37,984 nucleotides of DNA from a virus, in IMG/VR virus record IMGVR_UViG_3300040960_000278, positions 1 to 37,984 of that record. One strand, written 5' to 3'. How positions within the stretch are numbered: the stretch's first letter is position 1; every line of letters starts with the position of its first letter. Shown in pieces: positions 10,813 to 28,260 of the stretch. The notes below the pieces were generated by a model. The model was not told the DNA's origin. It did no database searches and worked only from the letters and a program-made list of their open reading frames with translations. The position numbers and the translations under genes were made by a program.

Positions 10813-10901
10813 TTTGAATTATCCTCTATGAATCGGTTGTACTTCTCAATTGCTTCCAATAGTTTCTGCAATTCTTTCTCTAGTTGTTGCTTGGTAACCA
10901 T
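10809..10901 (-). CDS. 30-aa coiled-coil microprotein
   Basis: MVTKQQLEKELQKLLEAIEK begins a fully helical 30-residue ORF with Leu/Ile heptad spacing. It starts at a TAATG overlap with the gp88-like gene and ends at an ATGA overlap with the 110-aa gene; AAGGTGAA precedes the ATG. Its tight placement supports translation; function unknown. Confidence 0.5.
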   Translation of the reverse strand: MVTKQQLEKELQKLLEAIEKYNRFIEDNSK

Positions 10902-11497
10902 TACTTCACCTTCTCTACAATGATGGTGTGATTGTTCTTACGATAGCAAGCCATGCAATCCATACATGATTTACCTGTGCATTCTGTCTGACCTTGGCCA
11001 ACCTCGCCACTGTCACTGGCATTGAATACCTTGTCAAAGCCTTTAGGGATCCGAGTCAGCACCTTGTCAGTGCGTGGATTGCTATAGATCATGATCAGGT
11101 TGTCAGGGATAGCGAAGTCCTTTACTAGGTTTATACGCTTCGTCCACAGTGCAAACGTGGTGTAAGGATTAGCGCGTGCTATGTTGATGTAATTGTTGAA
11201 GTGTGTCGCATTGATTAGCTCACCATGTGCGTGAAATCTAAAACTATGCGCGTTGATTGTTGGTAGCTCGTCAGGCTCTAACGTGCGGCTAGATAATAGC
11301 TCGCTGTTACGTTGCCAAGGTGCCTCGCAGTTTTTGCGTACACCTTGCAGCATTGCGGCCGAATAACAATCCTTGCAGATAGCATCCGTCTTTCGCATTT
11401 TGCTACAGAATTCATTTGATAGCGTGTTTGTATTGATAGCTTGAAAGCCTTTTAGCTTTCCTGTTAACGTTGATATTTTAATTTTAATTTCTTGCAT
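10901..11497 (-). CDS. Cys-rich phage protein, gp88-like family
   Basis: A 198-aa protein with NTNTLSNEFCSKMRK and CKDCYSAAML near the N-terminus (C31, C41, C44), NCEAPWQRNSELLSS, FRFHAHGELINATH in the middle, TTFALWTKR, and a C-terminal cluster CTGKSCMDCMACYRKNN. This pattern is found in a conserved actinophage/proteobacterial phage family (often called gp88-like) of unknown function. The cysteines may hold zinc or an iron-sulfur cluster. Strict conservation of Cys, His and Arg suggests an enzyme. The ATG at 11497 is preceded by AGGATTAATC. It is the largest gene of the first early segment. Confidence 0.78.
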   Translation of the reverse strand: MQEIKIKISTLTGKLKGFQAINTNTLSNEFCSKMRKTDAICKDCYSAAMLQGVRKNCEAPWQRNSELLSSRTLEPDELPTINAHSFRFHAHGELINATHFNNYINIARANPYTTFALWTKRINLVKDFAIPDNLIMIYSNPRTDKVLTRIPKGFDKVFNASDSGEVGQGQTECTGKSCMDCMACYRKNNHTIIVEKVK

Positions 11498-11499
11498 GA

Positions 11500-11673
11500 T
11501 TAATCCTCAATTAAATCTAATTCTGTAAACGTGTGATTCCATTTATCGGAATGACCAACAAAACAAACACCGCGTTTTTCTAATGCTTTTACTATCTGTT
11601 TTTCGGTAAGTTTAATATAACTATTTTCTAGCGCATAGCGATATACTTCATAAGCGCAGCTGTCTAATTGCAT
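11500..11673 (-). CDS. Hypothetical protein, 57 aa
   Basis: I start it at the ATG at 11673, which has GGAG 9 bases upstream. A longer in-frame reading would run back into the preceding gene's 3' end and has no ribosome site. It begins MQLDSCAYEVYRYALENSY and includes KLTEKQIVKALEKRG, a helix pair. No known family. Confidence 0.6.
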   Translation of the reverse strand: MQLDSCAYEVYRYALENSYIKLTEKQIVKALEKRGVCFVGHSDKWNHTFTELDLIED

Positions 11674-11717
11674 AATAATTTGCTCCAATTTTAGCGGCCA
11701 TCCTTGGCCATGATTGA

Positions 11718-11903
11718 TTAGTAAATTGTGTCTGAAGTGTAGTATGCCCATTTCTTGTCTGGGTTGTATTTTTCCCAGTCTTCGCGGCGATCTTGCAAAT
11801 AGCTCCATGCTTTTTTCTTGCTGCTGAAATAGTTATTTATTTTAGCTTGCGTGCCGTCTTGATATTCCCAGAAAATAACTACGATATGTACTTTTTTAGC
11901 CAT
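11718..11903 (-). CDS. Hypothetical protein, 61 aa, first gene of the leftward arm
   Basis: Starts MAKKVHIVVIFWEYQDGTQA with GAGGAATTATCATC before the ATG. Basic and aromatic, with SSKKKAWSYLQDRREDW in the middle. As the promoter-proximal leftward gene it would be among the first phage proteins made, a position often held by host-takeover factors. Function unknown. Confidence 0.65.
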   Translation of the reverse strand: MAKKVHIVVIFWEYQDGTQAKINNYFSSKKKAWSYLQDRREDWEKYNPDKKWAYYTSDTIY

Positions 11904-11946
11904 GATGATAATTCCTCTTTTGCTAATGTGTCAGGATTGACAAGGA

Positions 11947-12172
11947 TAACCACTCTTGCGAATGGTTAACCGTTTCAAACTGATACGCCACTATCAGGAG
12001 ATCCCGTAGCACCTACACTGGCAGGTTATGCTCTCACAATCTCAACATCATTGTATTACGCCGATGCTCCGACAGTATCCAGTGCCGTTCTGGTTGATCC
12101 TGTTTTCAAGTGTCTGATCAGTAGCCACTGCAATTAATTGTTTTTATTGATGGGTTAATTCGTCATCCCATC
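11947..12172 (-). other. Hairpin-rich block, possible structured leader of the early transcript
   Basis: At least six inverted repeats follow each other. They are 11947-11968 (on the minus strand a 9-bp stem TAACCATTC/GAGTGGTTA, with one G-U, capped by GCAA), 11980-11997 (CTGATA/TATCAG), and 12008-12032 (AGCA-CCT/AGG-TGCT). The rest are 12072-12103 (ACAG-CCAG/CTGG-CTGT), 12119-12130 (CAGT/ACTG) and 12149-12172 (GATGGG/CCCATC). The stem at 11947 is perfect only when read on the minus strand, and its loop is then a GNRA tetraloop, so the leftward RNA is the likely structured molecule. No known RNA family recognised. Confidence 0.45.
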
Positions 12173-12267
12173 CGAGTATTGGCGCGCTCTCAATCGCTTC
12201 TCATGTGGTGTACTTTAGTCGCTTGGTCACCAATGTCTATTAAAAGTTTTTTATAGATACCATAAGA

Positions 12268-12295
12268 ATTATTTATATATACCTATATTAGTCAC
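12268..12295 (-). promoter_or_regulatory. Weak candidate leftward early promoter
   Basis: Minus strand: GTGACT (12295-12290), 16-bp spacer, AATAAT (12273-12268), in a very AT-rich stretch. It lies upstream of the hairpin block and the first leftward gene. Match to consensus is modest (4/6 and 5/6); I list it because some promoter must exist here and I see no better one. Confidence 0.3.
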
Positions 12296-12325
12296 CTCTA
12301 ATGGTTCGGATCCGAGACCTGTAAC

Positions 12326-12346
12326 AGTATATAAGCAAATACTAAT
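12326..12346 (+). repeat. 21-bp dyad repeat, copy 1
   Basis: Matches the consensus core ATATWAGCANNTNCTAAT. It is isolated from the other eight copies and lies to the left of the DnaA boxes, so the two sets flank the candidate origin. Confidence 0.8.
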
Positions 12347-12412
12347 ATACTATGTCTTGTATATAATGAGTACGCGTAGCAATTATCATGCCAACGTGTT
12401 CTGGCCAGCGTT

Positions 12413-12465
12413 TCATCCACAGGTTACTAACAGGGTTATCCACAGAATTGGCATAGTTATCCACA
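12413..12465 (+). promoter_or_regulatory. Three phased DnaA boxes
   Basis: Two perfect boxes TTATCCACA at 12436-12444 and 12457-12465 and one near match TCATCCACA at 12413-12421, all in the same orientation. Start-to-start distances are 23 and 21 bp, close to two helical turns. Host DnaA binding here is the direct reading. Confidence 0.8.
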
Positions 12466-12473
12466 TAGCTAGG

Positions 12474-12564
12474 AGGCTCTGTAAGGCTCTCTAAGGCATT
12501 TTTGGATTTTAGATACCCTGCTATCAAGTACCCCTAAAACGGCATAGAGGCTCTCAGAGGCTCT
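12474..12564 (+). repeat. Helically phased AGGCTCT repeats
   Basis: AGGCTCT occurs at 12474, 12484, 12548 and 12558: two pairs each spaced exactly 10 bp. A shortened AGGC at 12494 continues the first 10-bp series. All lie on one face of the helix next to the DnaA boxes, suggesting a protein-binding array. Confidence 0.7.
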
Positions 12565-12604
12565 CACAGGTATAGAGAACAAATAGAGAACTTAGGCCGA
12601 TTGC

Positions 12605-12633
12605 TTGACATTCTGGCCAGAGTATGCTATGGG
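12605..12633 (+). promoter_or_regulatory. Degenerate copy of the late promoter with a palindrome in its spacer
   Basis: TTGACA (12605-12610), a 17-bp spacer ending AGTATGC exactly as in the three late promoters, then TATGGG where TATAAT is expected. The spacer contains TCTGGCCAGA. Either a dead promoter or one that needs an activator bound to the nearby repeats. Confidence 0.4.
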
Positions 12634-12684
12634 TCATATCAGTATATTAGCAAGTACTAATGTATGGGATTCTGGCCAGAGTAT
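12610..12684 (+). repeat. Repeated TCTGGCCAGA palindrome
   Basis: The 16-bp segment ATTCTGGCCAGAGTAT occurs at 12610 and 12669, and a 9/10 copy of the palindrome at 12400-12408. TCTGGCCAGA is a perfect 10-bp palindrome. Copies alternate with the dyad repeats. Confidence 0.7.
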
Positions 12685-12911
12685 TAGCATATTAGCAAGT
12701 ACTAATGCGACTAGGATATAAGTATATTAGCAAGTACTGATGGAGATCTGTATAAGTATATTAGGATATGCTAAATAGCTACTACACCGACACACACATT
12801 AGTACTTCAGAATATAAGCACATACTAATACAGTACTTTAGAATATAAGCAGATTCTAATGCGCCTCCTCCATTAGCATATTAGCATATAACAATATAAG
12901 CAGATTCTAAT
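12641..12911 (+). repeat. Array of eight 21-bp dyad repeats (iterons/operators)
   Basis: Copies start at 12641, 12686, 12721, 12755, 12809, 12840, 12875 (degenerate) and 12891. Consensus AG then NATATWAGCANNTNCTAAT, built around the dyad TTAG-N6-CTAA. An inverted half copy is at 12796-12810. Spacing is irregular (31-54 bp, two copies overlap), unlike a CRISPR. The half-site CAAGTACTAA recurs inverted as TTAGTACTTG across the -35 of late promoter PL1, so one protein could bind both the array and that promoter. Confidence 0.85.
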
Positions 12912-12924
12912 GCGTTCCTAAGGC

Positions 12925-12959
12925 GGGTTCGCTACAGGGGACGGGGGAGGGGGCGGCGG
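12925..12959 (+). other. G-run cluster with quadruplex potential
   Basis: Runs of 3, 4, 5 and 5 G (12925-12927, 12937-12940, 12943-12947, 12949-12953) followed by GG-C-GG-C-GG type sequence, on the plus strand only. The first loop is 9 bases, the others 2 and 1. It stands out in an otherwise AT-rich region next to the last dyad repeat. Confidence 0.55.
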
Positions 12960-13090
12960 CTAATCAGAATTCTATAGTACCTACCTAGACACAAAAAAGA
13001 GCAAAATAGCAACTAGGTAATAAAAAAGAAACTGTACTGGTAACTATTTGTTTTCTTTATAGAAACTGCGGCGGCTCTGCGGAGTGTCAT

Positions 13091-13102
13091 GTCTCATGAG
13101 AC
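13091..13102. promoter_or_regulatory. 12-bp perfect palindrome upstream of PL1
   Basis: GTCTCATGAGAC equals its reverse complement and lies about 50 bp upstream of the PL1 -35 box. Placement suits an activator site; no partner is known. Confidence 0.45.
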
Positions 13103-13154
13103 CCGCCATAAAAGGTAACACAAACTGCACTGTTATCAATGGAGTATTTAGTAC

Positions 13155-13183
13155 TTGACTTTCTCTAAAAAGTATGCTATAAT
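13155..13183 (+). promoter_or_regulatory. Late promoter PL1
   Basis: TTGACT (13155-13160), 17-bp spacer ending AGTATGC, TATAAT (13178-13183), extended -10 TGC. The sequence AGTAT-GCTATA-ATATACT makes a dyad over the -10. It drives the packaging, lysozyme and portal genes. Shares spacing and 12 or more bases around the -10 with PL2 and PL3. Confidence 0.88.
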
Positions 13184-13276
13184 ATACTGAATAGAAACGT
13201 TAACAAACGTAGAATTATAATCTTAGTGTTATTTTTAATGTTAATCACTAAGTACCTAAAGAGAAAACTCTATAGT

Positions 13277-13669
13277 ATGGAAGAGCCTCAGACAACAAAG
13301 AAACGCGGAAGACCTAAGAAGGCTGATGTGTTATCAAAAACAAAAGGTAACAGAGTAGCACGTGGTCGTCCTAAAGGCGATGCAGCCATCATTAACGAAT
13401 ATAAAGCAAGGATGTTAGCATCTCCAAAGAGTGCTAAAGTTCTTGAGAAGATCTTTGATGCAGCGTTAGATGATGAACATAAACACCAAGCTGCTGCATG
13501 GAAAATAATTACTGATCGTGTTATCCCTACAGCAACCTTCGAGAAGGATGTTGTTAAAGGCGCAGGACGTAATGCTATACAGATTAACATCAGTGGCATC
13601 GGCGGTAGTGTGGATGTTTCTCCTACTGATGACGATGATATTATTGAGGCAGAGTACACTGATGAGTGA
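13277..13669 (+). CDS. Putative small terminase subunit with AT-hook-like motifs
   Basis: A 130-aa protein starting MEEPQTTKKRGRPKKADV. Two GRP motifs (RGRPKK at about 10-15 and RGRPKG at about 30-35) resemble AT-hooks that bind the minor groove. The middle is helical (INEYKARMLASPKSAKVLEK, then DEHKHQAAAWKIITDR) and the end is acidic (DDDDIIEAEYTDE). It is the first late gene, two genes before the large terminase, and proteins of this shape are usually annotated as terminase small subunit. The start is uncertain: no good ribosome site precedes the ATG at 13277, and in-frame starts exist at 13226 and 13238. Confidence 0.65.
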   Translation: MEEPQTTKKRGRPKKADVLSKTKGNRVARGRPKGDAAIINEYKARMLASPKSAKVLEKIFDAALDDEHKHQAAAWKIITDRVIPTATFEKDVVKGAGRNAIQINISGIGGSVDVSPTDDDDIIEAEYTDE

Positions 13670-17654: not shown

Positions 17655-17785
17655 TGATTACACGTAAAGAATTAGAGGACGTTCTGACACAAGTAAACAC
17701 AATCCTTGAACGTATGGAACGTAGAATAGAAAAACTAGAAGAGTTGACTAAGAAACCTGTAGGGCGGCCAAAAAAAACCTCTTGA
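17654..17785 (+). CDS. 43-aa coiled-coil microprotein with AT-hook tail
   Basis: Starts MITRKELEDVLTQVNTILER, continues as a heptad-repeat helix (MERRIEKLEELTKK) and ends PVGRPKKTS. The GRPKK motif is AT-hook-like and also occurs in the putative small terminase. It starts at a TAATG overlap with the portal gene and its stop overlaps the PL2 -35 box. Function unknown; a small DNA-binding or packaging accessory is possible. Confidence 0.6.
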   Translation: MITRKELEDVLTQVNTILERMERRIEKLEELTKKPVGRPKKTS

Positions 17786-17810
17786 CTTTTACTAAATAGT
17801 ATGCTATAAT
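17782..17810 (+). promoter_or_regulatory. Late promoter PL2 (scaffold/capsid)
   Basis: TTGACT (17782-17787), 17-bp spacer ending AGTATGC, TATAAT (17805-17810), extended -10 TGC. Nearly identical to PL1 and PL3. Drives two small genes, scaffold and major capsid up to the terminator at 20089. Confidence 0.88.
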
Positions 17811-28231: not shown

Positions 28232-28260
28232 TTGACTTTCTTAAAAAAGTATGCTATAAT
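28232..28260 (+). promoter_or_regulatory. Late promoter PL3 (tail and internal virion genes)
   Basis: TTGACT (28232-28237), 17-bp spacer ending AGTATGC, TATAAT (28255-28260), extended -10 TGC. It is the third copy of the PL1/PL2 sequence, in the 77-bp gap before the tail tube gene. The arms AGTA and TACT flank the -10. Confidence 0.88.

Follow-up and report, generated by a model that had tools for sequence, protein, structure and literature searches.

The leftward operon of this phage begins with a leader in which no gene is evident, and the question that it raises is whether this leader makes a structured RNA kept by selection and, if it does, what such an RNA is for. The window, by which we mean the whole stretch of DNA analysed, is an entire IMG/VR virus record of 37,984 bases, and no DNA similar to it was found in the annotated phage collection. 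Rightward from 13.2 kb lie the genes for terminase, portal, major head protein and tail fibre; leftward from 11.9 kb the genes run toward primase/helicase, DNA polymerase and ribonucleotide reductase. The leader RNA region opens the leftward operon. A repeat array flanks it on one side and a gene for 61 amino acids on the other, and the terminase genes are about 1.1 kb away and oriented away from it.

Layout of the locus

The elements that border the leader RNA are the following.

11718..11903, minus strand: first leftward protein gene, 61 aa, without a family match; a 62-aa homologue is present in L188, the relative compared below
12212..12239, minus strand: candidate leftward promoter TAGACA-16-TAAAGT, 9 of 12 consensus matches, predicted transcript start near 12204
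12277..12912, no strand assigned: upstream repeat array, outside the RNA, 10 related 27-nt repeats with the inverted core ATTAG-N6-CTAAT

The promoter is weak evidence when taken alone, because the scan gave 11 promoter-like sites against 7.3 expected by chance; both of its hexamers are unchanged in the L188 alignment, in which the spacer differs. A protein search with the product of the first gene gave no match, and this gene starts 29 nt after the hairpin window (11933-11982) described below. Further along, the leftward gene at 10901-11497 (minus strand) matches Pfam GP88; a search with it added 21 loci, several with terminase in the same divergent layout, and among these 21 there was no match to our hairpin model beyond those already counted.

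The repeat array also carries three TTCTGGCCAG repeats; it is partly kept in L029 and L188 and resembles an origin or a set of operators. On the rightward side, a promoter-like sequence, TTGACTTTC..AAAGTATGCTATAAT, occurs in three near-identical copies (13155-13183, 17782-17810 and 28232-28260) where none is expected by chance, and similar stretches are present in many relatives; judged by sequence, the three are probably the late promoters of the phage, of the host sigma-70 type.

The leader as a single sequence

The initial annotation had singled out a stem at 11947-11968 that is perfect only on the minus strand and there carries a GCAA loop. This stem is present as described (UAACCAUUC-GCAA-GAGUGGUUA, with one U.G pair), and the 42-nt stretch around it (11937-11978) folds at -16.5 kcal/mol, a z of -5.0 that none of 200 shuffles equalled. 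The description of the whole leader as a chain of hairpins did not hold: the folding z is -1.95 on the minus and -1.97 on the plus strand, with 3 of 100 shuffles as good on each, so that a chain of hairpins alone is unconvincing when the whole folds barely better than chance, and the consensus fold presented below is instead a multi-branched RNA at about 11928-12200. The inverted repeats reported for the region exist, but they include short palindromes; one of them, 11980-11985/11992-11997, forms no hairpin in the consensus fold, where its halves pair elsewhere.

That the region has no coding frame, also claimed from the sequence, agrees with the codon statistics and with L188. The longest stop-free frame in the leader has 55 codons, on the plus strand, with a codon score of -0.22 against 0.40 ± 0.19 for the genes of the phage; runs as long appear in 389 of 500 shuffles, and the frame is broken in L188. 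We also considered 11970-12134 as a fragment of a tail gene on account of its protein-like translation and rejected it: it has no PHROG or phage match, its homologue at the DNA level is noncoding, and the frame is not conserved.

Covariation between the window and L188

L188, an IMG/VR locus found through a peptide search with the 55-codon frame that returned this single locus, is the one relative with the same leader. It resembles the window at the DNA level, with 69% over about 2.1 kb that take in the leader, the repeats and the small terminase gene, and this similarity is very unevenly spread. The 5' part of the RNA (12106-12203) is 96.9% identical, with a best 98-nt stretch of 99% at 12095-12192, against 57.7% and 62.2% in other intergenic DNA (12331-12640 and 12913-13153, respectively); the hairpin stands at 64.3%, the 61-aa gene at 73.7%, and terL at 92, 98 and 68% in codon positions 1, 2 and 3. 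The leader RNA drifts more slowly than its surroundings, the opposite of the fast drift that the initial annotation had named as the sign of a spurious feature.

Compensatory changes, proposed there as the check in relatives, are present. In a hand-adjusted alignment of the window and L188, the RNAalifold consensus has 79 pairs with 11 two-sided changes, no one-sided change and no broken pair. In a MAFFT core alignment of 187 columns with shortened loops, all 10 variable pairs changed on both sides (two in P6, three in P8 and five in P9), as good a result being reached by 1 of 500 shuffles, and structures slid by 1-3 columns give 0-1. The structure conservation index is 0.90, compared with a mean of 0.56 and a maximum of 0.71 in 200 column shuffles, at an energy z of -6.8. 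The fold, and selection on it, are thereby demonstrated, and it is this comparative evidence, beyond the folding of a single sequence, that makes the leader feature real.

The signal is also specific to one strand. The antisense conservation index is 0.74, the consensus energy is -71.8 in the minus sense and -49.3 in the antisense, and G.U pairs in 7 of the 10 helices of P1-P9 of the window favour the minus strand. The initial annotation had suggested that the leftward transcript opens with a structured RNA, or that the region makes a noncoding RNA of its own, and had offered host control or protection from nucleases as possible roles; the results support a structured RNA of one or the other kind.

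The multi-branched fold

The leader RNA is noncoding, about 230-270 nt long and multi-branched, and consists of two domains and a closing hairpin.

12130..12197, minus strand: domain I, three-way junction (RNAalifold consensus), pairs identical in L188
Minus strand: domain I helices (RNAalifold consensus), P1 12197-12190/12137-12130; P2 12189-12187/12176-12174; P3 12172-12163/12158-12149
11987..12125, minus strand: domain II, multi-branched, P4 (12125-12114/11997-11987) enclosing P5-P8
Minus strand: domain II inner helices (consensus), P5 12110-12107/12102-12099, invariant; P6 12093-12090/12082-12079
Minus strand: domain II inner helices (consensus), P7 12068-12062/12050-12044, invariant; P8 12043-12035/12006-11998
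11928..11986, minus strand: P9, long imperfect closing hairpin, base 11986-11975/11940-11928, tip 11971-11960/11955-11944
11947..11968, minus strand: GNRA-capped stem, the tip of P9; loop GCAA in the window, CUUG in L188, mostly NCUA in relatives

The whole RNA has two members, the window and L188. Helices P1-P5, P7 and the base of P9 are invariant between them and therefore rest on energy, the P9 base also on the wider hairpin family; the five two-sided changes of P9 all lie in its tip. The main differences in length, in the hand-made alignment, are in the loops of P7 and P8, one of them being an extra small hairpin in L188. At 11980-11997, CTGATA..TATCAG, identical in L188, may pair locally into a hairpin incompatible with P4 and with the base of P9, and a switch between the two folds is conceivable from the sequence.

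The closing hairpin belongs to a family

Two relatives gave weak matches, at the corresponding position, to the hairpin part of the whole-RNA model. When this hairpin was turned into a pattern, a scan of all loci returned 28 places, of which the 11 with strong long flanking pairing were used as seeds. The 11-seed covariance model matched 15 further loci, two of which, L063 and L145, duplicate records already included; the matches in L118, L121, L058 and L105 are weak (E above 0.1), and 40 unrelated loci (336 kb) gave none. From 34 matches we made an alignment of 23 sequences, window included, dropping 6 plus-strand mirror matches, the duplicate records L063 and L145, L095 (the same hairpin sequence as L079), and L118 and L121 (of different shape or partial), and retaining L058 (E 0.99) and L105 (E 0.13).

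The architecture of the hairpin is that of two stacked stems, an internal loop and a small variable loop. In the 23 hairpins 94.7% of cells are paired, against 35-45% in slid versions, percentages that lean upward because the seeds were picked for pairing and the hits fitted to the model; the count of different pair types per position is the stronger evidence. Double changes occur at 16 of the 19 pairs, and RNAalifold without a supplied structure returns nearly the same stem. The GNRA cap, which the initial annotation took for a feature, is not conserved: GCAA occurs in 2 of the 23, CUUG in L188 and NCUA most commonly, so the cap is incidental.

Nor is the hairpin peculiar to the leader. Every hairpin used reads leftward, and for most the small terminase gene is about 0.7-1.5 kb away; whole records carry one copy each (7 of 18 records). 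An upstream gene is present in 21 of the 24 loci examined; its stop codon is at most 8 nt from the hairpin window in 17 of these 21 and 44-105 nt away in four, and the next start codon follows 11-48 nt past the hairpin in the 21 loci where a start was found. The hairpin joins genes of many families, at least 11 unrelated ones upstream and 10 downstream. By its sequence contexts, then, the P9-type hairpin appears to be a modular inter-cistron element of related phages, and where relatives place a protein gene the window and L188 have a structured RNA.

The modelled hairpin is found in 20 of 83 distinct relatives with at least 1600 nt upstream and is absent from 63. Many other relatives have a two-part hairpin of different sequence, at most 7 nt from the stop codon in L140, L165, L099, L162, L065 and L066; these are examples and no statistical result, because the opposite strand is also hairpin-rich, and general hairpin counts (3.6 leftward and 2.5 rightward per locus) were dropped as evidence. 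In L110, L117, L118 and L119, a terminator-like hairpin with a T run directly follows the first leftward gene, about 1.1-1.3 kb upstream of the small terminase gene.

Searches for further copies and known families

The 15th release of Rfam gave no covariance-model match in the window at the gathering cut-off, and nothing meaningful in the window and L188 leaders at E up to 10. Searches of annotated phage and plasmid DNA, for close as well as remote similarity, found no homologue of the leader, the few short hits having E of 8e-3 or worse and sharing nothing else. Exact patterns added little: GATAGTGGCGTATCAG matched 7 stretches and GAACGGCN{8,22}CGGAGCATCGG 27, the one real match in each case being L188, and none of the 8 stretches with CTGATCAGACACTTGAAA in genomes was supported by the model. 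The whole-RNA model R1, run on 207 sources (100 + 88 + 19, window and L188 included, the third set being 19 of 40 pattern-scan loci) and 28 whole records, matched in full only in the window and L188. No description of the leader RNA or of the hairpin family was found among open-licence PMC papers, though one may exist elsewhere. We regard the leader as a new structured RNA of phages that carries a modular linker hairpin of RNase III-like type, and the RNA family is absent from Rfam 15.

Other long leaders occur among the relatives. L030 (1017-1480, minus strand) has one of about 460 nt that holds no long leftward frame and contains many GNRA-like hairpins along with a perfect boxA-like CGCTCTTTAACA; its sequence is unrelated to the window RNA and has no Rfam match. 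L182 (3142-3402, minus strand) and L045 (1122-1412, minus strand) have long leaders without a clear gene, followed by a strong two-part hairpin. All three are candidate noncoding RNAs only, because their folding energy is unremarkable (z of -1.4 in L182, -1.0 in L045 and +0.7 in L030), and with these values folding energy alone was rejected as evidence.

A proposed role for the leader RNA

We propose that P9 is a processing or insulation element. Since the RNA stands in the first slot of the operon and P9 resembles the T7 site R1.1, we propose further that the operon yields this RNA as its first product and that P9 is where the mRNA is split off from it. The leftward early transcript would start with the noncoding RNA (12200 to about 11930), that is, with the three-way junction, the multi-branched domain and the terminal long hairpin, and this RNA would fill the slot that relatives give to their first protein-coding early gene. 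P9 would then follow the first cistron and precede the ribosome-binding site of the one behind it, where the host RNase III or a similar nuclease most likely cuts or marks it, so that the upstream RNA would be freed as a stable molecule and the downstream mRNA would keep a protected end. The released RNA would probably act at an early stage of infection, its target being either the host or the expression of the phage itself. On balance we think it somewhat more likely than not that the first slot of the early operon holds a noncoding RNA which an RNase III-type hairpin splits from the mRNA, and that this RNA is released and acts early.

The model RNase III site, T7 R1.1, lies between genes 1.0 and 1.1 and is a hairpin of 60 nt that contains an internal loop (PMC6121014); for RNase III to cut, a stem of 12 bp capped by a tetraloop is enough (PMC8708148). 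The window hairpin is likewise made of lower and upper stems around an internal loop, with an upper stem of about 11-12 bp and a small loop; in relatives it lies, by position, between cistrons of the early transcript and ends shortly before the next ribosome-binding site. There are two differences: P9 of the window sits between a noncoding RNA and the first gene, not after a gene, and the internal loop of R1.1 is asymmetric (4/5 nt), whereas that of the hairpin family is symmetric in the alignment, with 3-4 nt a side.

Two other classes of phage RNA invite comparison. GOLLD and ROOL, which an excerpt of PMC12286853 describes as ornate, larger phage RNAs, often near tRNA genes, are also noncoding and have elaborate folds with covariation support; many GOLLD, however, exceed 800 nt, and the window RNA has no Rfam match and the window no tRNA. 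The RNA anti-CRISPRs (Racr), small noncoding phage RNAs in the part of PMC10651486 that introduces them, may be comparable as phage-encoded products that could act against host defence; Racrs mimic CRISPR repeats as short solitary units.

Other readings of the same evidence

A cis-acting leader, in which the RNA remains part of the mRNA and regulates the operon behind it as a processive antiterminator or a riboswitch-like regulator, would suit the position at the head of the replication operon. The put RNAs of HK022 are, in the account given by the relevant section of PMC9378689, cis-acting structured RNAs in early leaders, of about 70 nt and two stem-loops, that suppress termination by binding RNA polymerase, and like the window RNA they need no coding sequence. 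The terminator-like hairpins of L110, L117, L118 and L119, together with the boxA-like sequence of L030, make control of read-through at the first-gene position plausible, and the alternative hairpin at 11980-11997 excludes P4 and the P9 base, as a switch requires. Against this, the window RNA, at about 270 nt with ten helices in a multi-branched fold, is about four times larger than put and not of its size class; its ribosome-binding site is mostly unpaired in the fold; and the conserved hairpin precedes different genes in different relatives. A scan of 11904-12204 with the boxA consensus found no lambda-type nut or rRNA-type boxA (GCTCTTTAACA-like, 2 mismatches), and 11500-13600 holds no intrinsic terminator-like site (G+C stem followed by a T run). 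We regard control in cis as possible but doubtful.

Instead of being a nuclease site, the hairpin could serve for stability as a cap, bind a protein as an operator, or form a DNA junction that eases the swapping of cassettes. The hairpin does separate unrelated gene cassettes, its palindromic DNA could serve recombination, and the invariant U.G and A-U pairs of the upper stem, with an almost invariant A-U at the internal loop, could be read by a protein. The roles at the DNA level are countered by the strand: in the leftward RNA sense the hairpins score 73-76 bits, and the same places on the other strand 19-27, which, together with a conserved U.G that would be a mismatch in the complementary RNA, indicates that RNA rather than DNA is selected. 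Recombination directed by sequence would be poorly served as well, because the families differ greatly in sequence while the pairing is kept. Taken as a whole, we hold this second reading to be unlikely, though arguable.

It is very improbable that the RNA serves replication or packaging, either as a primer or regulator beside origin-like repeats or as a packaging RNA near the terminase genes. The RNA does have the 10-copy array and two TTATCCACA sites next to it, with terminase at a distance of about 1.1 kb; it points away from the array, however, L029 keeps the repeats without the RNA, no Rfam family matches, and TTATNCACA is no commoner than chance across the whole window. Chance hairpins or an unrecognised coding region, for which a single-sequence folding z of about -2 and the 55-codon plus-strand frame might be cited, we dismiss, given 10 of 10 compensated pairs, a conservation index beyond all 200 column shuffles, and a frame that is neither conserved nor like the phage's genes in codon score.

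Implications for early phage operons

Returning to the reading that we favour, of an early RNA released at P9, a bolder extension can be offered tentatively. The first-expressed slot would be a cassette site that can take a small protein or, in its stead, a large structured RNA, with processing hairpins of one kind closing both. The RNA of the window and L188 would be a stand-alone early RNA gene acting in trans on the host, for instance as a decoy for a factor involved in defence or expression, and L030, L182 and L045 might have, in their long leaders, unrelated RNAs in the same role.

The locus adds a new RNA family, with clean compensatory evolution, at the site of the first early gene of such phages, and the hairpin family, which recurs beside many different genes, offers a testable modular signal for the splitting of early phage transcripts. 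Should the RNA act in trans, structured RNAs and cassettes for small proteins would be interchangeable tools during the first minutes of infection.
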